A stretch of 64,000 bases of DNA from Clostridia bacterium (GTDB taxonomy: Bacteria; Bacillota; Clostridia; Oscillospirales; CAG-382), in the NCBI GenBank assembly GCA_017516825.1, contig JAFXBC010000035.1:1-64000 (forward strand), written 5' to 3'. This document shows positions 34,067 to 43,152 of this stretch, piece after piece. The notes beneath the pieces are model-generated. The model made no database searches and was not told the DNA's origin. It worked only from the letters and a program-made list of their open reading frames with translations. Positions within the stretch are counted from its first letter, which is position 1, and each line of letters starts with the position of its first letter. The position numbers were made by a program, and so were the translations under genes.

Positions 34067-35008
34067 TTAATAGGAATTTTTCAGAAAAGCAGATAAGGGG
34101 GTGGCGCCTTCGTTGCTTGCCAATTGATGCTTGGCCTTGGCGATCGCTCCCGTAACCGGCTCTGCCTCCAGACGGAACAGAGTGGCGGTTTCGGGAATAT
34201 GCTTTGCCACCAGCTCCATGGCCAGGGGATCCTTGAAGATCCCGCCCGCCAACGCCACGGAATAGGGCTTGCCCTCAAACAGGCCTGCCGCCGTGGTGAT
34301 CAGCTCGCCCACGTAGGCGAAGTTCTGCTCTAAGATCGCCACCGCCGCAGGGTCGTTTTCCCGTGCCGCGGCGAATACCACCGGGGCAAAGGCGGCAAAT
34401 TGGGTCTTGGAGTAGCCGTTGATCTCAAAAATGCTCTTATGGCATCCTTCCGGGAATTTCGCGTCCATCATGGAGGCCAAAACGCCGTAGTCGTCTCTGC
34501 CGTCCAGGGTGCGGAACACGTGGGCAAAGGCGGCCTTTCCCATTTCGTAGCCGTTACCCGTCAGGTCAAACTGGCCGTAGCCGCCGATGCGGTAGACGGT
34601 ACCCTTTACCTTGACAAAGCAGGAGGAGCCCGTTCCGCAGATGATGATGGCGCCGTCCTCCCCGTGGGGGAACCCGCCGTACAGCACGTTCATACCGTCG
34701 TGGGAGCAATCACAGCGGGCGTTGGGGAAGGCTCTTCCCAGCTTGTCCCGCAACAGCTCGTTCATCTTGAAGGAGGTCAGCCCCGCGATGCCTGCAAAGA
34801 CGGAGGCCACTTCGCCGTTTTCCACCCCGTTTTCACGGCAGAGAGAGGTGAAGCCCTCCAGAAGCAGAGCCTCCATGGCCTCGTAGCCGATGTCCCCGGG
34901 ATTGGAGCGCCCGCGGGTGCAGGAGGCGATGGGGTTGCCCTCTGCGTCGGCCAGAAGGAAGGCGGTCTTACTGCCGCCTCCGTCTGCGCCCAACAAATAG
35001 CGTTTCAT
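34067..35008 (-). CDS. BadF/BadG/BcrA-type ATPase, probable N-acetylglucosamine kinase
   Basis: The 313-residue protein has the actin-like ATPase fold: phosphate-1 loop LLGADGGGSKTAFLLAD at the N-terminus, CSHDGMNVLYGG, the phosphate-2 IICGTGSSCFVK near residue 122, and an adenosine motif SVALAGGIFKDPLAMELV. Proteins of this size in the family are mostly eukaryote-like N-acetylglucosamine kinases. That would suit the GH20 hexosaminidase in this window, though the genes are 6 kb apart. The start is four bases after the mscL stop and has no clear ribosome-binding site, so translation may be coupled. thrS follows downstream. Confidence 0.85.
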   Translation of the reverse strand: MKRYLLGADGGGSKTAFLLADAEGNPIASCTRGRSNPGDIGYEAMEALLLEGFTSLCRENGVENGEVASVFAGIAGLTSFKMNELLRDKLGRAFPNARCDCSHDGMNVLYGGFPHGEDGAIIICGTGSSCFVKVKGTVYRIGGYGQFDLTGNGYEMGKAAFAHVFRTLDGRDDYGVLASMMDAKFPEGCHKSIFEINGYSKTQFAAFAPVVFAAARENDPAAVAILEQNFAYVGELITTAAGLFEGKPYSVALAGGIFKDPLAMELVAKHIPETATLFRLEAEPVTGAIAKAKHQLASNEGATPLSAFLKNSY

Positions 35009-35012
35009 GGAT

Positions 35013-35495
35013 TTATTTCTTTTCGTCCAGCAGGGTCTTGATCTCGTTCAGAACGGCCAGAGTCTTCTCCTCAACGGTGGGTTCCGCGGGAGCGGGAGGG
35101 GGAGGAGGAGCGGCTTCTTCCTCATCCTGGCGCAGGGATTCCATCTTCTGCTGGAATCTCATAGCGGAACGGATGATGACGAACAGGGTCAGGGCAACGA
35201 TGAAGAAGTTGATGACGTAGGAAAGGAACAGACCGTAGGAGATGGCAACCTCGGGGGTGACCACGGCGCCTGCTTCGTCCAATACCTCGGGGGTGAGGAC
35301 GTACTTCAGGTCTACCAGGTCCTGGGTGTTGCACAGGTTACCGATGACGGGCATCAGGATGTGATCAACCAGAGATTTTACGATCTGGTTGAAGGCAGTA
35401 CCGATGATCATACCGACTGCCATATCAAGGATGTTACCCTTGGTGATGAACTTCTTGAAATCGGTGAAGAAGCCGGATTTCTTATTCTTAGCCAT
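35013..35495 (-). CDS. mscL: Large-conductance mechanosensitive channel
   Basis: This 160-residue protein has the MscL plan: an amphipathic N-terminal helix (FFTDFKKFITKGNILDMAVG), the pore helix MAVGMIIGTAFNQIVKSLVDHILMP split here by its family signatures, a periplasmic loop, and TM2 YGLFLSYVINFFIVALTLFVII. The C-terminal cytoplasmic bundle is preceded by a proline run (AAPPPPPAPAEP). The homopentamer opens under membrane tension to release solutes. GGGAGGG lies before the ATG. Confidence 0.95.
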   Translation of the reverse strand: MAKNKKSGFFTDFKKFITKGNILDMAVGMIIGTAFNQIVKSLVDHILMPVIGNLCNTQDLVDLKYVLTPEVLDEAGAVVTPEVAISYGLFLSYVINFFIVALTLFVIIRSAMRFQQKMESLRQDEEEAAPPPPPAPAEPTVEEKTLAVLNEIKTLLDEKK

Positions 35496-35510: not shown

Positions 35511-35705
35511 TTACGCGATAGCGGCGTTCAGCTTCGCCAGAAGAGCGTCGGCGTCGGTGCCGTGAACCTCGCAAGCCTGCTCGATGGATTCCCCGCGGGA
35601 GTGGGGGCAGCCCAGGCAATGCATACCGATCTCGAAGAAGTATTCTGCCAGGTGGGGGTACTGATCCAGCACGTCGCCGATCAGCATGTCTTTGGTGATT
35701 TTCAT
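35511..35705 (-). CDS. Small DUF1858 protein
   Basis: The 64-residue protein contains ITKDMLIGDVLDQYPHLAEYFF and the IGMHCLGCPHSRGESIEQAC motif. This CxxC-bearing hybrid-cluster-associated domain (DUF1858) is found alone or fused in many anaerobes. The two adjacent cysteines and the third in EQAC suggest redox or metal binding, but the function is unknown. It has a good AAAGGAG ribosome-binding site and lies 13 bases after the P-type-ATPase-like gene and 15 before mscL, in one transcription direction. Confidence 0.88.
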   Translation of the reverse strand: MKITKDMLIGDVLDQYPHLAEYFFEIGMHCLGCPHSRGESIEQACEVHGTDADALLAKLNAAIA

Positions 35706-35718
35706 AGTGGGATCTCCT

Positions 35719-38283
35719 TTATTTTGCTTTTTTATTTTTCGATCTGAAGAAGAGGAGGAGCTGTACCACCCCTTGCCACAGGGCTACCAGCCCGCCGGTC
35801 AGCAACAACTGCCGCCAGGTGGGGAAGGTGAACAGGGCGGGGATCAACAGCAACAGCCCGCAATACGCCGCCAGGCAGGGGAAGGTCAGCCAAAGGGCTC
35901 GGCATCCGAAGCGACCGCGGCGGAGGGCGCCTTCCTCGTACAGGCACCCGCAGGCGTAGAGGAATTGGGAGAGCAACGCTCCCGGGAACAGACAGGCGGT
36001 ACTGCCTGTGAACAGGAAGCAAAGGTAAAGCACCACGCCGTTCCCGATCCCAAACAGGACGGGGGGAACCGTTTCCCGCAGGAAGGTCTTCCTGCCGGGG
36101 GCGGGGACTTGGTAGTTGAGAATGGAACGGTCCGTGGGAAGCAACGCCACCACGGTGGCCAGGGCAAGGTTGCCCACCACGCCGCCCAACAGCACCTCGG
36201 GAAGGCCGTAGGGGAGGGATCCTCCCGCAAAGACGCCGACGGTCAAGCAGGTCAGCCATCCGCAAAGCCCTGCGGTCAACAGCTGTAACAGCCAGCGGAG
36301 GCGGAAATACAGCATCTTCGCCCCTGCGATGCCTGCGGCGAACACCTGGAAGCCGTTTTCCTTCATCAAAAGGTCTGCGCTTTCCCGCAGGATGTCCTTC
36401 TCGTTACTGCGGACGGCAGAGATGTCCGCTTCCCGCAGTAAGGGGATCTGGGCTTCCTCCGTGCCGGTGGCAAGGACGGTCCTGCCGGATTCCCTCCGCA
36501 GGCGAAGCACGTCCAGCCATTGATCGTGGGTGGGCTCCAGGAACACTTTATATTTCCCGGAATTCAGCACGTACATACCTCGGTCGGTGACGTCGATCTC
36601 ACGGGAGCTGATCATTTCTCCCTCGCTTTCGATGATGCCAACGCTTTTCGCAATGCCTGCGGCGGTATGGTAGGGATCGTCGGTGGAGAGAACGCATTCG
36701 ATCCCCGCCTTGGAGGTACGGTAGATGCCTCCTGCCATATCCACCTCCATGGAGAGGCGGAAGGCCAGGAAGCCCCGGAAGATGAGACGGCGTTCCGTCA
36801 GGGGATTCCGCAGGCTGTCCTCTCGGGTGACCCCGGAGGCAACTGCCACTAAGTAGGCCATGTTGCGGGTGGCGCGCTCTGCGGCGGAGAGGATCTTTTT
36901 CTTGGCGGCGGGAGTCATTTTGTATTCCTTCCCGTCGGTCTCGTATCCCGCACAGCGGGCCAGGACGTCCTCGGGAGCGCCCTTGATCACCACGCGGTTG
37001 TGATCCTTGTTCAGAGAGATGACTCCGTTTACCTCCCCTTCTCCGTTGCGGGCGGTGTCCACGCGGAACCATTCCTCCGTCAGCTCGGTGACGGGAATAC
37101 AACGATCCCGCAGATAGGCGGCGGTGACCCCCTCGTAGGGGTGCAGGGTGCGGGGGAAGTCGGAGCATACCAAGGAGAGCTTCAACACCTCCTGCATGGC
37201 GTGGTTGGGAGGGATCTCCGCGGAATACAGCTTTCCCCCTGCAAAAACGCTGTCCAGGAAAGGCTTCTTGGGAGGGAAGGTAAGCTCCTTGGGGCACATC
37301 ACCGTGTTCACCCGGGCCAGGCGGTTGATCTTATCCAGATTCCGCAGGATGACCCCGCTTTTTTCCAGCTTCCGAAGCCCGTCTCCAAAGGAAAGACAGG
37401 CCAGAGCCAGGGCGATGTCACAAAGAGAGACGGCGGCGGTGGCCGCAGACAGGGCCAGGAGAGCGCCAAGCCCTCTGCCCAGCAAAGCCCCTGCCACGGA
37501 AAGCAGGAAGCACCCCAGAAGACCGATCAGGGAAAGCCAGCGGCAATATTCCCGCGCGTGGGTCAGCAGGGGAGGAAGATAGTCTTTTTTTGTGGAACGG
37601 ATCTGGCGCAACAGGGTGTGATCCCCCGTGCGGCAGACCATGGCAAGGCAGGTGCCGGAGGTCACCAGGGTGCCTGCGTACAGCATATTGCCGCTGACCG
37701 CCTCCGATTCCTTGGCGGGAATGCGGTTGGATTTCCGTACCGCCGTCCGTACCCCGCTGACGGGGGTCTCCAGGGCGGAAAGACGGCCGTCGTCCTCCAG
37801 AATACGGGCGTCGGCGGGAACCAGGTTGCCCTGCTCCAAATACAAAAGGTCTCCCGGCACCAGCAGGCGGCTGTCCGTCTTCTGGCTTTTGCCGTCCCGC
37901 ACCACCTGTACCGCAAAAGCGGAATGCTTTTCACGCCCCCGCAGGACACGGGCGGCGATCAGCTCCCAAAGAGCGCCCACCGTCAGGGCGAAGGCCCCGA
38001 TCCCCGTGGAGACCAGGTAGATGGGATCCTGCAAAAACAGGTAAAGAACCAGCATCACCGCCAAAAACAGCAGGCTTACCATGCCTCTCAGCTGGCTCTT
38101 GATCCCTTCGGCGGGATGGATGGCAAATTCCTTGCGGAACAGGTTCTTCCCGTGGAGGTGCAGGCGGTAGCGGGCTTGCTTTTGGGTCAGCCCGTTGAGC
38201 CCGTGGGATTCCAGGCGGGCTACCAGCTCCTCCGGGGAGCAGGTCTGGGGGATGAATACCCCGGTTTCTTCGGTTGTTTGCAC
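35719..38283 (-). CDS. P-type ATPase homologue without catalytic motifs (pseudoenzyme)
   Basis: The protein is 854 residues from a GTG with AAGGAGG upstream. It keeps the P-type layout: an N-terminal cation-ATPase domain (EELVARLESHGLNGLTQKQAR), two helices, an actuator domain with VPGDLLYLEQGNLVPADARI, helices 3-4, P- and N-domains with VVIKGAPEDVLARC (434-438 KGAPE), and a C-terminal helix bundle. The essential motifs are gone: DKTGT is replaced around 326-336 by TVMCPKELTFP, TGES by LETPVSG (171-177), TGDGxND by TGTEEAQ (606-612), and the helix-4 PEGLP by a proline-free stretch. The frame is intact and codon use is normal. It therefore probably cannot form the aspartyl-phosphate, yet appears maintained. 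A regulatory or scaffold role is inference. Confidence 0.85.
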   Translation of the reverse strand: MQTTEETGVFIPQTCSPEELVARLESHGLNGLTQKQARYRLHLHGKNLFRKEFAIHPAEGIKSQLRGMVSLLFLAVMLVLYLFLQDPIYLVSTGIGAFALTVGALWELIAARVLRGREKHSAFAVQVVRDGKSQKTDSRLLVPGDLLYLEQGNLVPADARILEDDGRLSALETPVSGVRTAVRKSNRIPAKESEAVSGNMLYAGTLVTSGTCLAMVCRTGDHTLLRQIRSTKKDYLPPLLTHAREYCRWLSLIGLLGCFLLSVAGALLGRGLGALLALSAATAAVSLCDIALALACLSFGDGLRKLEKSGVILRNLDKINRLARVNTVMCPKELTFPPKKPFLDSVFAGGKLYSAEIPPNHAMQEVLKLSLVCSDFPRTLHPYEGVTAAYLRDRCIPVTELTEEWFRVDTARNGEGEVNGVISLNKDHNRVVIKGAPEDVLARCAGYETDGKEYKMTPAAKKKILSAAERATRNMAYLVAVASGVTREDSLRNPLTERRLIFRGFLAFRLSMEVDMAGGIYRTSKAGIECVLSTDDPYHTAAGIAKSVGIIESEGEMISSREIDVTDRGMYVLNSGKYKVFLEPTHDQWLDVLRLRRESGRTVLATGTEEAQIPLLREADISAVRSNEKDILRESADLLMKENGFQVFAAGIAGAKMLYFRLRWLLQLLTAGLCGWLTCLTVGVFAGGSLPYGLPEVLLGGVVGNLALATVVALLPTDRSILNYQVPAPGRKTFLRETVPPVLFGIGNGVVLYLCFLFTGSTACLFPGALLSQFLYACGCLYEEGALRRGRFGCRALWLTFPCLAAYCGLLLLIPALFTFPTWRQLLLTGGLVALWQGVVQLLLFFRSKNKKAK

Positions 38284-38325: not shown

Positions 38326-40596
38326 TTAAATAGCTTGAATTGCCACGCCTTTTTCGTCGGCGGTGGCGTTGATGGCGGTGACTCCCACGTTGTAACGGGC
38401 CACCAGCTCCATGGCGATGGCGTCCTCCAGCTCCGTCTGGATCAGACGGCGGAGGTTACGGGCACCGTATTTCTCGGAAAAGCCCTTGTCTGCCAGGTGC
38501 CGGATCACGTCCTCCGTCCAGGTAAAGGCGATATCCTTATCCGCCAGCACCTGCTTCAGCTCGCCCAGCATAATGGCGCAGATGGCGGAGAAATGCTCTC
38601 TCGTCAAACGGTTGAACACCACGATCTCGTCCACGCGGTTTAAGAATTCGGGACGGAGGAAGGCCTCAAGTGCCGTGCGGATGCGGGTCTCGTCGCTTTC
38701 CTTTTCCGTGGCGGTAAAGCCCGTGGAGCCCACGGAAACGGCGCCTGCGTTGGTGGTCATGATGATGACGGTGTTCTCAAAGTTCACTTCTTTGCCGTGG
38801 GAATCGGTGATGCGGCCGTCGTCCAAGATCTGAAGCAGAATATTCATCACGTCGGGATGGGCCTTTTCGATCTCGTCGAACAGCACCACGGAATAGGGCT
38901 TTCTGCGGATCTTCTCCGTCAACTGGCCTGCATCGTCGTAGCCGATATAGCCGGGAGGGGAGCCGATGATCCGGGAAACGGCGTATTTTTCCATATATTC
39001 GCTCATATCCAGACGGATGAGCGCATCGGGGGAATCAAAGAGATATTCCGCCAGATCCTTCACCAATTGGGTCTTGCCCACGCCGGTACTGCCGGCGAAG
39101 ATGAAGGAAACGGGCTTTTTCTTGTAGGAGATCCCGGCGCGGGAACGGCGGATGGCACGGGTCACCGTGTCGATGGCCTCGTCCTGGCCCACGATGTGGC
39201 CGCGGAGGGTGTCTCCCAGGGATTCCAGCTTTTTGAAGTCGTTTTCGCCGATGGAGGAGGCGGGGATCCCCGTCCAGACCTCGATGACGCTTGCCAGATC
39301 TTCCACGGTGAGGGCCAATTTGTCCCGCTCCGAGGAGAGCTGATCGAACCGCTGGTCCTTCTGAAGCTTTTCCGTCTTCAGCTCCGCCAAGCGGGCGTAA
39401 TCCTCCTCTGCCATCATCTCCTTGGCCTCCAGATCGGACTGCTTCTTTTCCAAAGCCTTGATCTCGTCTGCCAGAGAATTCAACTCGTTGATGACGGGGG
39501 AGTGCATGGACACGTTGGCGCAGGCCTCGTCCATCAGGTCGATGGCCTTATCCGGCAGGAAACGGTCGTTGATATACCGCTCGGAGAGCTGTACCATACG
39601 GCGCACCACGTGGTCGGAAATGCGGATGCCGTGGTACTTCTCGTAATAGGAGCGGATGCCCTTCAGGATCTCCACGGCGTCCTCCACGGAGGGCTCGTTG
39701 ATCATCACGGGCTGGAAACGGCGCTCCAACGCGGCGTCGTGCTCGATATATTTACGGTATTCCGTCAAGGTGGTGGCGCCGATGATCTGCACCTCGCCTC
39801 TGGAAAGGGCGGGCTTTAAGATGTTGGCGGCGTTCATCCCGCCCTCGGCGTTCCCCGCTCCCACGATGGAGTGGATCTCGTCGATGACCAGGATGATGTT
39901 GCCGTTTTCCTTGACCTCGTCGATCAGGCCCTTCATGCGGTTTTCAAACTGCCCGCGGAACTGGGTGCCCGCCACGATGGCGGTCATATCCACCAGGAAG
40001 ACCTCTTTTTTCTTCAATTTATAGGGGACGTTCCCTGCGGCGATGCGGAGAGCAAGTGCTTCCGCCACGGCGGTCTTACCCACGCCGGGTTCGCCGATGA
40101 GGCAGGGGTTGTTCTTCTGCCGTCTGCACAGGATCTGGGTCACACGCTCCAATTCCGTATCCCGCCCCACGATGCGGTCCAGCTTGCCCTCGCGGGCACG
40201 GGTGGTGAGGTCGATACAGAAGGCGTCCAGGCATTTGTGCTTGGGACGCTTGCCCTCGGGCTGTTTTTTGCTCCCGGGCTTTTCCCCCTCGGGGCTCTGC
40301 CGGGCAGGCTTTTGGTCGCCGAAGACGGCGTTCAGATCGATGGCGGGGGCTCTGCCCTCGTCCTCCTCGTCGCCGTCAAGCTCTGCGGGCAGAAGGGATT
40401 CCAGCTCCCCGGACATACTTTCCAGGTCCTCGTCGGAAATGCCCATCTGCTTTAAGATATCGTCCACGGGCTTCAGCCCGATCTCTTTGGCACACTTGAT
40501 GCAATAGCCCTCCTGGGTGGCCTTGCCCGCCGTTTCCTTGGTGACGAAGATCACTGCGGGTCGGGTCTGACAGCGGGTACATTTTTTCAGGATCAT
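38326..40596 (-). CDS. ClpE/ClpC-like AAA+ unfoldase with N-terminal zinc finger
   Basis: The 756-residue protein starts with a zinc-finger region (CTRCQTRP ... GYCIKCAKE), as in ClpE, rather than the double Clp_N domain of ClpC. An acidic linker leads to AAA-1 (Walker A GEPGVGKT, Walker [15 protein letters not shown]), a coiled-coil middle domain of ~50 residues ([17 protein letters not shown]), and AAA-2 (Walker A GSTGVGKT, Walker [21 protein letters not shown] sensor). The C-terminal D2 small domain is present. It would unfold proteins for ClpP or act alone. No LGF/IGF-type ClpP loop was confirmed. The start overlaps the pgsA stop as ATGA. A CtsR box was not seen. Confidence 0.88.
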
Positions 40597-41168
40597 TCCT
40601 TGGTTCTCCTCATGTTCTCAAAATGTTTGATCCCGTAAAGCCCGCGGAAGATCTTGATGTAATACATGATCAGCGCGAACAGGATGGTAACGATCAGCAA
40701 CCCGCAGAGAATGGCGTTCAATACGGCGTTGTGAGGATACAGGATCATGGTGATGGTCAAAACGAAGATCACGGCGGTGGCCAGCTTTCCGTACCAGAAG
40801 GAAGCGACCACGCTGTGCTTGGTACGCATAACGATAATAGCCCCCACCATCATGGTCAGCTCCTTCAAAGAGAAGAGGATGAGGAGTACCAGCGGGATGA
40901 TGAACATATCGTCGTCCTTGAAATCCAGGGTCAGACAGAGCAAAACGGTAAACTGCATCAGCTTATCCGCCACAGGGTCAAGGATCTTGCCTACGTTGGT
41001 GATCCATTGATTCCGTCTTGCCAGGTAGCCGTCCAGCACGTCCGTAGCGGAGGCAAAGAAGAAGATGCCTGCTGCCGCCACGCGGTTGTCTTCCCGGAAG
41101 ACCCACACGAAGAACGGGATGCAAAGCAAGCGGATCACGGATAAAATGTTGGGAATTTGTTTTTTCAT
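40593..41168 (-). CDS. pgsA: CDP-diacylglycerol-glycerol-3-phosphate 3-phosphatidyltransferase
   Basis: The 191-residue integral membrane enzyme commits CDP-diacylglycerol to phosphatidylglycerol synthesis. The CDP-alcohol phosphotransferase motif is intact: ATDVLDGYLARRNQWITNVG followed by KILDPVADK, giving the DGxxAR-x8-Gx3Dx3D pattern. The N-terminus NILSVIRLLCIPFFVW is typical PgsA. Length matches the family. It heads a run with the Clp ATPase, overlapping its start by four bases, and follows the CvpA-like gene by 38 bases. Confidence 0.94.
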   Translation of the reverse strand: MKKQIPNILSVIRLLCIPFFVWVFREDNRVAAAGIFFFASATDVLDGYLARRNQWITNVGKILDPVADKLMQFTVLLCLTLDFKDDDMFIIPLVLLILFSLKELTMMVGAIIVMRTKHSVVASFWYGKLATAVIFVLTITMILYPHNAVLNAILCGLLIVTILFALIMYYIKIFRGLYGIKHFENMRRTKE

Positions 41169-41206: not shown

Positions 41207-41911
41207 TCAGAACAGGATCTTCAATATCTGGATCGCGTCAAAGAGGCGGTACAGGTATGTGTCCGCGGGGTTAAAGGAATCGAAGATCTCCAGCCCCTGC
41301 ATGGATGCGGCGGAAACCAGAATGCCCACCACGGCGCAGAAGACGAAGATACGCACCAGCGCCAGAAGTACTCCCAGGGCCATGCCCAGCAGGGTGTTGG
41401 CGCTCCGCACGAAGGGGATCTTTTCCACCAGCCCCGTGAGCAGCTTGCCTGCCAGCTTCAAAAGCAATACCGTTGCCACGAACAGGATCAGCATGGAGAG
41501 GGCCTTCATCACCAGCACGGTGATGGGGTCGGCTATGTATTCCGCCACTTGGGCCCGCATGGAGTCCTCGTCGCCGTCAAGCTCTGCCGCCCAATGGGAA
41601 AACGCCTCCGTATCCATGCCCAGCTTTTCCAAAGCGGACAGGAGAGGGCCGTCCTCGTCCTGTGCCAGCTCCGCGATGCTTTCCGATTCCGTCAGCTCCT
41701 CCACGAAGCCTTCCGTGCCGCTGTGTACCGCGTCGGCTATGGGGGTGGCCCCCAGGATGCCGGACAAAAGCCCGGTGAAGCAGAACACCACGATCAAAGC
41801 GATGAGGGAGCTTGCGGCGTTCACCGCGGTTTTGATAAAGCCCCGCTTGCCTGCCAGGAACACGGTGACCACGGCGATGGCGAGAATGATCAGGTCAATG
41901 ATAAGATTCAT
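41207..41911 (-). CDS. CvpA family membrane protein
   Basis: The 234-residue protein begins LIIDLIILAIAVVTVFLAGKRGF, the typical first CvpA helix plus GKRGFIK turn, followed by a second helix (LIALIVVFCFTGLLSGILG). A polar ~90-residue insert rich in Glu and Asp sits in the middle. Then come AVLLLKLAGKLL-type and LLGMALGVLLALVRIFVFC helices. CvpA proteins were first linked to colicin V production, but their general role in membrane or cell-envelope homeostasis is poorly understood. Its start overlaps the stop of the DUF5711-like gene (ATGA, 41908-41911). Confidence 0.82.
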   Translation of the reverse strand: MNLIIDLIILAIAVVTVFLAGKRGFIKTAVNAASSLIALIVVFCFTGLLSGILGATPIADAVHSGTEGFVEELTESESIAELAQDEDGPLLSALEKLGMDTEAFSHWAAELDGDEDSMRAQVAEYIADPITVLVMKALSMLILFVATVLLLKLAGKLLTGLVEKIPFVRSANTLLGMALGVLLALVRIFVFCAVVGILVSAASMQGLEIFDSFNPADTYLYRLFDAIQILKILF

Positions 41912-43152
41912 TGCGTTTCCTCCTTTTGGGTATCGGTCAATCGGTATGCCAGATTCTTTTCGAAGACCACGGGAGTGCCGTCTTCGTCAAACAGCAGTTG
42001 TACCGCATCTCCACGGGTGGCGTGGGATGCTTCCTCCCCGGACAGGGGGAGCAGGGTGACCTCCTCGGAGGTCAGAAGATACAGGGTGTCTGCCGCAAAG
42101 TGCAGATCCGCGGGAACGGCGGGGCAGGGGGTATGGCCCACCACGTCTCCTTCGCCGTCGTACACCGTCAGCTCCACGCCGTCGGAAAGCCCGCCGCCGG
42201 TGGTGATCACCAGCACGTGTCCGTTTTCGAAACGGCAGTTGGCAAGGCCTGCGCCCTCCATGGACACCGTTTGCAGCACGGAATGATCCTCCCCGCTGCA
42301 GAACCGCAGGGCAGTCCCGGTGAGGACGGCGTAATTCCCGTCCTCCAGATAGCCCGCCATCAGGGGAAGCTCTCCCGTAAAGGTGGCGGTATACACAGGC
42401 TCCTCCTCCTTCACGGAGTAGACCTGCAGTAGCGTACGCAGGTAGCCGCCTCCCGCCTCGTGCCCCAGGGCCAGGAACTGCTTCCCGTCGGGGGAGAGGG
42501 CGATGTAATCGACGTAGGTGTTGCTCAGCAGACGCTTGTAGATCTGCCGTGCGTAGCCGTCGTAAACGTAAATGGCACTGCGGTAGTTCTTTTCCGCGGT
42601 GATCACGGCGAAGTGGCCGGATTCCGAAGCGGAAAAGCCGTAGATGGGGTAATCCATGGCAAGGCGGGCCAACTGGGAGTAGGAGTTGAACATCCGCACC
42701 TCGTTGCCGCCCAGGTCGTAGGCGAAAATATTCTGGGAGGTGGCCACCAGGCGGGGATCCTCCATGCGGAAGCTCTCGGAGAACAGCTTGCTCCCCACGG
42801 TGCCGGCTTCACGGCTGTACACCGTCAGCCCGTCGGTATTGAGAACCACCAGGTCTCCCTTGAACAGGGCGCCTCGGTTGGATTCCACGTAGTCGTAGCG
42901 GATCTCGGCGGCGGCGGAGACGTCCACCTCCGTCAGATCCAGAAATTTCAGCATATAACGGAAGTTTTCGGCAGTCAGCACGTCACCGTGGGCGGTAAAG
43001 CCGTACACGCCGAACAGCACCGTTGCCAAAAGACAGAAATACCGCAGGTGGGACACCCGCCGGGCCTTCTTCTCGTAGTACTGTTCCACGGTGGGGGTTT
43101 CCGTATTCTTTTTTCGTTTCTTGCGGTCAAAAAAGATGGAAAATGCAGACAC
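41908..43152 (-). CDS. DUF5711-like membrane-anchored beta-propeller protein
   Basis: From a GTG at 43152 the protein has 414 residues. A basic cytosolic leader (RKKRKKNTETPTVEQYYEKK) is followed by one membrane helix (YFCLLATVLFGVYGF) and an external ~350-residue region of short repeated beta blades (VLNTDGLTVYSREAGTV, IYVYDGYARQIYKRL, IALSPDGKQFLALG, LTVYDGEGDVVGH). This pattern fits DUF5711-type proteins that sit next to cvpA in clostridia. Blades suggest a WD40/PQQ-like propeller that binds a partner. Function unknown. Confidence 0.78.
   Translation of the reverse strand: MSAFSIFFDRKKRKKNTETPTVEQYYEKKARRVSHLRYFCLLATVLFGVYGFTAHGDVLTAENFRYMLKFLDLTEVDVSAAAEIRYDYVESNRGALFKGDLVVLNTDGLTVYSREAGTVGSKLFSESFRMEDPRLVATSQNIFAYDLGGNEVRMFNSYSQLARLAMDYPIYGFSASESGHFAVITAEKNYRSAIYVYDGYARQIYKRLLSNTYVDYIALSPDGKQFLALGHEAGGGYLRTLLQVYSVKEEEPVYTATFTGELPLMAGYLEDGNYAVLTGTALRFCSGEDHSVLQTVSMEGAGLANCRFENGHVLVITTGGGLSDGVELTVYDGEGDVVGHTPCPAVPADLHFAADTLYLLTSEEVTLLPLSGEEASHATRGDAVQLLFDEDGTPVVFEKNLAYRLTDTQKEETQ

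Follow-up and report, generated by a model that had tools for sequence, protein, structure and literature searches.

The locus considered here carries a gene for a homologue of the P-type ATPases from which the motifs of catalysis are missing, and it raises the question of whether such a gene is in decay or encodes a conserved pseudoenzyme and, if the latter, what that protein does in the cell. It lies within a stretch of 64,000 nucleotides from a Clostridia bacterium (contig JAFXBC010000035.1), which is referred to below as the window. A preliminary description had proposed a P-type ATPase homologue with an intact frame, which had lost TGES, DKTGT, TGDGxND and the PEGLP of helix 4 and was conserved for a new function, perhaps as a sensor or regulator of the membrane, rather than decaying. 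The follow-up draws on the family of the window (f1) and on two further families of the same order (f16 and f19).

The reading frame starts with GTG and runs for 854 codons without an internal stop. The protein matched the Pfam families E1-E2_ATPase (1.8e-23) and Cation_ATPase_N (5e-7) as well as the PMR1-type NCBIfam model TIGR01522 (1.6e-39), the latter with a score of 135 bits where the cut-off is 798, which places it outside the PMR1-type equivalog. In the PDB it matched LMCA1, the solved Ca2+-ATPase of Listeria (8e-34), and a profile of the orthologue family matched LMCA1 at 1.6e-99 over nearly the whole length, N-terminus and last helices included. With homology over the A, P, N and transmembrane regions, the protein belongs by fold and descent to the P-type superfamily (P2 lineage) and is, as judged from these alignments, a full-length homologue of the type-II (PMR1/SERCA/LMCA1-like) ATPases. 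Both hydropathy and homology fit a ten-helix body with an A/N/P headpiece. AlphaFold was run on only three sequences (the window protein and those of L034 and L035) and gave a pLDDT of 35 and a pTM of 0.31. The order of N-terminal domain, A domain, helices, and P and N domains is common to the bacterial P2A Ca2+-ATPases (LMCA1/lmo0841), PMR1/SPCA, SERCA and the window protein; the latter differs from all of these in being without DKTGT, TGES, TGD, DPPR, TGDGxND and PEGLP.

The register of the lost motifs was set by alignment to canonical paralogues (Table 1). It confirms the four losses named in the preliminary description, just as the database matches and the uninterrupted frame agree with its assignment of the gene. 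One correction concerns the phosphorylation site, where the register position of the phosphorylated Asp is P331, with C330 one residue earlier. The motifs that have been retained are GDLLYLEQGNLVPAD and KGAPE (434-438). Tested as an active P-type ATPase, the window protein fails on each of DKTGT, TGES and TGDGxND, and tested as a P2A Ca2+-ATPase it fails on the helix-4 PEGLP, which reads CDIAL; in most relatives from the window's genus this site is SLCDS-like. The statement that every catalytic site had been lost needs qualification, as four of the 12 catalytic residues (K332, T335, T534 and D536) are still identical. Single residues thus persist, but on this alignment no working catalytic site is left. 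A phosphoenzyme cycle would be impossible for such a protein, an inference made because the required residues are missing.

Table 1. Features of the pseudo-ATPase locus in the window, with replaced and retained motif sites given in residue numbers of the 854-aa protein
Feature	Position	Strand	Basis
BadF/BadG-type ATPase/kinase domain protein; neighbour in part of f1	34067..35008	(-)	
MscL mechanosensitive channel; f1 neighbour, not found near f16 or f19 loci	35013..35495	(-)	
DUF1858 / TIGR03980 small redox-disulfide protein; next downstream gene in f1 and f16	35511..35705	(-)	
Pseudo-P-type ATPase, intact frame, 854 aa	35719..38283	(-)	motif alignment and profile matches
TGDGVND site, now TGTEEAQ (606-612)	36448..36468	(-)	alignment register
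SERCA K684 position, now W589	36517..36519	(-)	alignment register
TGDH site, now TDDP (534-537)	36673..36684	(-)	alignment register
DPPR site, now LSME (510-513)	36745..36756	(-)	alignment register
KGAPE of N domain (434-438), kept	36970..36984	(-)	alignment
DKTGT site, now PKELT (331-335), inside motif [DN]TVMCxKxxAFPP	37279..37293	(-)	alignment register
Helix-4 PEGLP site, now CDIAL (288-292)	37408..37422	(-)	alignment register
TGES site, now SGVR (176-179)	37747..37758	(-)	alignment register
AAA+ Clp unfoldase, 756 aa, N-terminal CxxC...CxxC zinc-finger-like, Walker A/B intact, ClpE-like; proposed partner	38326..40596	(-)	
CDP-alcohol phosphatidyltransferase (PgsA-like), upstream of Clp, conserved in many loci	40593..41168	(-)	
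CvpA-like membrane protein (Pfam Colicin_V), conserved neighbour	41207..41911	(-)	
DUF5711 protein, conserved neighbour	41908..43152	(-)	

A protein search of 63 f1 genomes gave 46 full-length orthologues and two partial ones, with identities of 25-81%. DKTGT and GDGxND are absent from all of the f1 pseudo proteins; no motif is missing from the canonical paralogues encoded in the same genomes. The family has conserved replacement motifs of its own, namely [DN]TVMCxKxxAFPP at the phosphorylation site, an ETPVSG-like sequence in the actuator loop and an SLCDS-like sequence in helix 4, and a number of residues have been newly fixed (P237, P337, G644 and R661 in 46/46 proteins, the Trp at W589 in 45/46). 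The canonical residues of helix 6 have been swapped, mostly for Gly, Phe and Asn. In the few f1 genera that retain Asp-Lys, the intact TGES-TGD-GDGxND set is not kept. Genus g5 (L040, L043-L047) is one in which Asp-Lys is found, within CDKEVAFP, and there TGT and D703 are gone.

Such a remodelled headpiece could sense a ligand (a nucleotide, an ion, a redox state or a lipid) and signal to a target other than the Clp protein encoded upstream, for example to the synthesis of phospholipids by PgsA or to MscL as an osmotic valve. The KGAPE lysine position is occupied by K or R in all 46 of the f1 proteins, Cys330, Cys373 and Cys444 are conserved in f1, and the neighbouring genes encode PgsA, CvpA, the DUF1858 redox protein and MscL. 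However, the positions aligned with F487, K492 and R560, which we take to be the ATP-contact residues of SERCA, are largely lost, and the conservation of Cys330 does not extend to f16 or f19. Ligand sensing of this kind is regarded as unlikely, although it deserves to be kept in mind. A redox switch at Cys330, which was considered separately, is weakened by the confinement of this Cys to f1.

An order-wide profile search of 394 genomes gave scores of ~990-1285 bits for the full-length f1 genes and of at most 480 bits for everything else. The best matches outside f1 came from f16, and these proteins are also dead. Active orthologues were sought among close relatives, and the high-scoring non-f1 matches that were read proved to be either dead f16 members or canonical genes. 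A profile of the P domain (A2), by which f1 members and the majority of those in f16 can be told apart from canonical pumps, recovered further and more divergent f16 members, also motif-less. It misses f19-like members and so does not rule out pseudo-pumps elsewhere in the class; with full-length profiles, divergent members have scores similar to those of canonical pumps, and for this reason the limits of the spread beyond the three families could be drawn only in part. The f19 proteins were found by reading the position behind Clp, and they are still more divergent, with no intact motif. No intact PEGLP was seen in any of the relatives inspected. An active P-type ATPase in the same slot was looked for at ~35 Clp loci from the remaining sampled families, where unrelated genes were found. 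Two f19 loci have slot genes of unusual length. That of L218 (1317-3383; G099) has only 689 codons, and in an hmmsearch its first ~340 residues matched and its C-terminus matched weakly, with most of the N and P domains missing or unrecognisable. The slot gene of L216 (7343-10822; G116) has expanded to 1160 codons, and its homology can be recognised mainly in the N-terminal third.

Catalytic residues were counted in a non-redundant set of 95 pseudo proteins (46 from f1, 18 from f16 and 31 from f19), with 26 canonical paralogues as the control. The pseudo proteins keep 0-5 of the 12 residues (medians of 3 in f1, 4 in f16 and 2 in f19) and a full set occurs in 0/95; the canonical paralogues keep 12/12. 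D351 is present in 14/95 pseudo proteins and D703 in 7/95, with both together in none of them, T353 is present in 2/95 and the Glu of TGES in 11/95. The phosphorylatable Asp is missing in 39/46 proteins of f1, 11/18 of f16 and 31/31 of f19.

These counts bear on the possibility that the protein still works as a pump in a non-canonical way, as has been argued for human TMEM94/ERMA. In this protein DKTGT is changed to DKQGI and GDGVND to GSSANL, TGES is absent, and yet it is reported to be an ER Mg2+ transporter that needs Asp427 (PMC13322241). Its status as a pump is itself disputed (PMC12134183). The window protein and ERMA have in common the P-type architecture, the missing TGES and the replaced GDGVND, without kinship having been shown; ERMA differs in being eukaryotic, in having no link to Clp and in retaining the phosphorylatable Asp together with the Lys, whereas the Asp is missing from most or all members of each family as counted above. 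A test for an ERMA-like Asp-Lys was not met by the window protein, which has P331-K332, nor by f19, where the Asp is absent in 31/31. A working pump is therefore hardly credible here.

The canonical paralogues allow for another role, that of the pseudo-pump as a regulatory subunit of an active P2-type ATPase in the same cell. A canonical P2-type ATPase is also encoded in the genome of the window (L002) and in most of its relatives. That of the window genome, however, is on another contig, and three genomes of the f1 genus g8 (G044, G045 and G046; 97-100% complete) have the pseudo gene as their sole match at E<=1e-90, with G044 (99% complete) lacking a second match at E<=1e-20. An active partner is thus not obligatory, and a regulatory subunit appears very improbable.

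In a FastTree phylogeny, 58 pseudo proteins formed one clade (support 1.0) apart from the 26 canonical ATPases, with sub-clade supports of 1.0 for f1, 1.0 for f16 and 0.93 for f19. Long-branch attraction is possible in this tree, and the shared chromosomal position provides independent evidence. The single clade and the common locus point to a single conversion in an ancestor and to vertical inheritance since then, and this indicates that catalytic loss happened once, in the common ancestor of f1, f16 and f19. On this inference, a P2/PMR1-like pump lineage would have lost its phosphorylation, dephosphorylation, hinge and Mg-binding sites a single time.

Selection was assessed from pairwise dN/dS values (NG86) for 21 pairs of relatives with dS from 0.13 to ~2.3, one further pair being dS-saturated. 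All 21 pairs gave values of 0.05-0.20. Between the window and its nearest relatives the pseudo-ATPase gene gave 0.18-0.20, and the neighbouring genes were similar (0.02-0.28). The lowest values among the neighbours tested, 0.02-0.05, were those of the DUF1858/TIGR03980 gene. The preliminary description had named two outcomes that would refute it, a dN/dS near 1 and close relatives retaining DKTGT or TGDGxND; the first is excluded by the 21 pairs, and at this locus no relative retains either motif. A conserved pseudoenzyme is thus well supported, with catalytic residues lost in all orthologues and the gene under purifying selection, and the original preference for conservation over decay has held; the sensor or regulator role suggested with it is still a conjecture. 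A decaying pseudogene, open by chance, would fit the disappearance of all the classical catalytic motifs, but not the open frames in three families and the low dN/dS, and it can be set aside almost completely; the decay of a single copy is ruled out by the orthologues in relatives and by dN/dS. The window gene is almost certainly a conserved dead P-type ATPase that has been kept by purifying selection.

The constraint is not evenly distributed over the protein. Between the window and two near relatives, dN/dS was 0.10-0.20 for the A/N/P headpiece and 0.29-0.38 for M5-M10, and family-wide conservation was highest in the A domain and lowest in M7-M10. A transporter would be expected to show the opposite emphasis. 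The greater constraint on the headpiece between close relatives argues against a transporter, and the cytosolic headpiece appears, from these rates, to be the part that matters. Also considered in this light was whether the transmembrane part of the former pump could work without an energy supply, as a channel, a carrier or a lipid scramblase. The ten-helix body is preserved by homology, an acidic residue persists in helix 4 (Asp in 36/46 f1 proteins, Glu in 25/31 f19 proteins) and the PgsA gene is nearby, all of which leave room for such a function. Nevertheless, M5-M10 are the least constrained part between close relatives, M7-M10 the most divergent family-wide, and the canonical polar residues of M5/M6 have been replaced by Gly, Phe or Leu, and a function of this type is considered improbable.

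The gene neighbourhood of the pseudoenzyme was compared among the three families. At 75 of the 78 loci with flanking sequence, the gene immediately upstream of the pseudo-ATPase gene encodes Clp and has the same orientation. The gap between the two is usually -4 to +50 bp. Overlaps of 1-4 bp are found in many f16 loci and suggest that the two genes are translationally coupled. Of the three exceptions, L041 and L276 are at contig ends, the 3' end of Clp being visible in L276, and L087 (f16) is a true exception with no Clp in the stretch. The upstream Clp proteins have 750-820 residues and nearly always an N-terminal CxxC...CxxC, and both Walker A boxes are intact in all of those checked. Their zinc-finger architecture is one that we take to resemble ClpE. 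The upstream gene of the window is like the ClpE-type AAA+ unfoldases in its zinc-finger-like N-terminus and its two intact AAA+ modules; the NCBIfam equivalog cut-off was not reached by the upstream Clp. Within the order Clp is near-universal (116/117 genomes), together with a conserved pgsA-CvpA-DUF5711-truA neighbourhood. Several f1 genera have Clp and no pseudo-ATPase gene, and in most of the sampled families no pseudo-ATPase is found beside Clp. Clp therefore does not need the pseudo-pump, and dependence, if there is any, is one-way.

The gene order ABC ATPase-truA-DUF5711-CvpA-pgsA-Clp-pseudo-ATPase-DUF1858 is largely common to f1 and f16. MscL and BadF follow the pseudo-ATPase only in f1, and DUF1858, MscL and thrS were not found beside the Clp-pseudo-ATPase pair at the f19 loci examined, from which the Clp pair would be the oldest linkage. 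In L201, L204, L205 and L207, thrS and the pseudo-ATPase block lie on different strands, which is not the case in the window. The run with DUF1858 and MscL that had been noticed at first is real in f1, and its DUF1858 part also in f16, but it does not extend to the f19 loci. The partner that is constant over all three families is the upstream Clp, and not DUF1858 or MscL. That these two linkages are not kept throughout also counts against the sensing of a ligand on behalf of such neighbours.

We propose that the pseudo-pump acts by binding and not by catalysis. Its ten-helix body would serve as a membrane anchor, and the surface of its A/N/P headpiece would recruit, position or regulate the ClpE-like zinc-finger AAA+ unfoldase encoded upstream, making the pseudo-pump a putative membrane receptor or substrate adaptor in Clp-dependent membrane-protein quality control. 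Taken as a whole, the explanation of a dead P2/PMR1-like pseudoenzyme that lost its activity once, was kept, and acts as a membrane receptor or adaptor for Clp is the one towards which we lean. The Clp partnership as such, inferred from gene linkage and the pattern of constraint, is plausible but stops somewhat short of probable, since conserved adjacency alone has been shown and gene order may reflect co-regulation only. It is a tentative suggestion, which may well not hold, that in an ancient bacterial lineage a ClpE-type AAA+ unfoldase acquired a membrane receptor of its own when a whole ion pump, headpiece and membrane body alike, was converted to this single, non-catalytic task. For none of the functional readings are structural, expression, biochemical or interaction data available. 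A model for how the pseudo-pump could work is provided by YqgP, a rhomboid of Bacillus subtilis that serves the AAA protease FtsH as a substrate adaptor and does not need its own catalytic activity for this (PMC7231995). Both cases combine a membrane protein of enzyme fold with an AAA+ machine; the folds and the AAA+ partners differ, and for the pseudo-pump gene linkage is the sole ground for assuming a partnership.

Pseudoenzymes are well known among kinases and proteases, but the open-access literature yielded no family of P-type ATPases in which every member is dead; subscription literature and the TCDB lists were not covered, and an earlier notice of a pseudo-pump family cannot be excluded. 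The nearest precedent that came to light is human TMEM94/ERMA, whose status is contested. Newly found here are the zinc-finger AAA+ Clp as the constant partner and the constraint on the headpiece above that on M5-M10. With ~100 orthologues, the fold of a pump has long been preserved without its chemistry. Active paralogues in the same genomes form a natural control, a candidate partner is encoded next door, and the use of the P-type ATPase fold without phosphorylation becomes directly testable. If the proposed role is true, it would represent a membrane-anchored Clp quality-control system that was previously unknown. Pseudo-pump genes are easily called calcium-transporting ATPases, which makes them a trap for annotation; the gene is also carried by the Oscillospiraceae MAGs SIG690 and HAN082.
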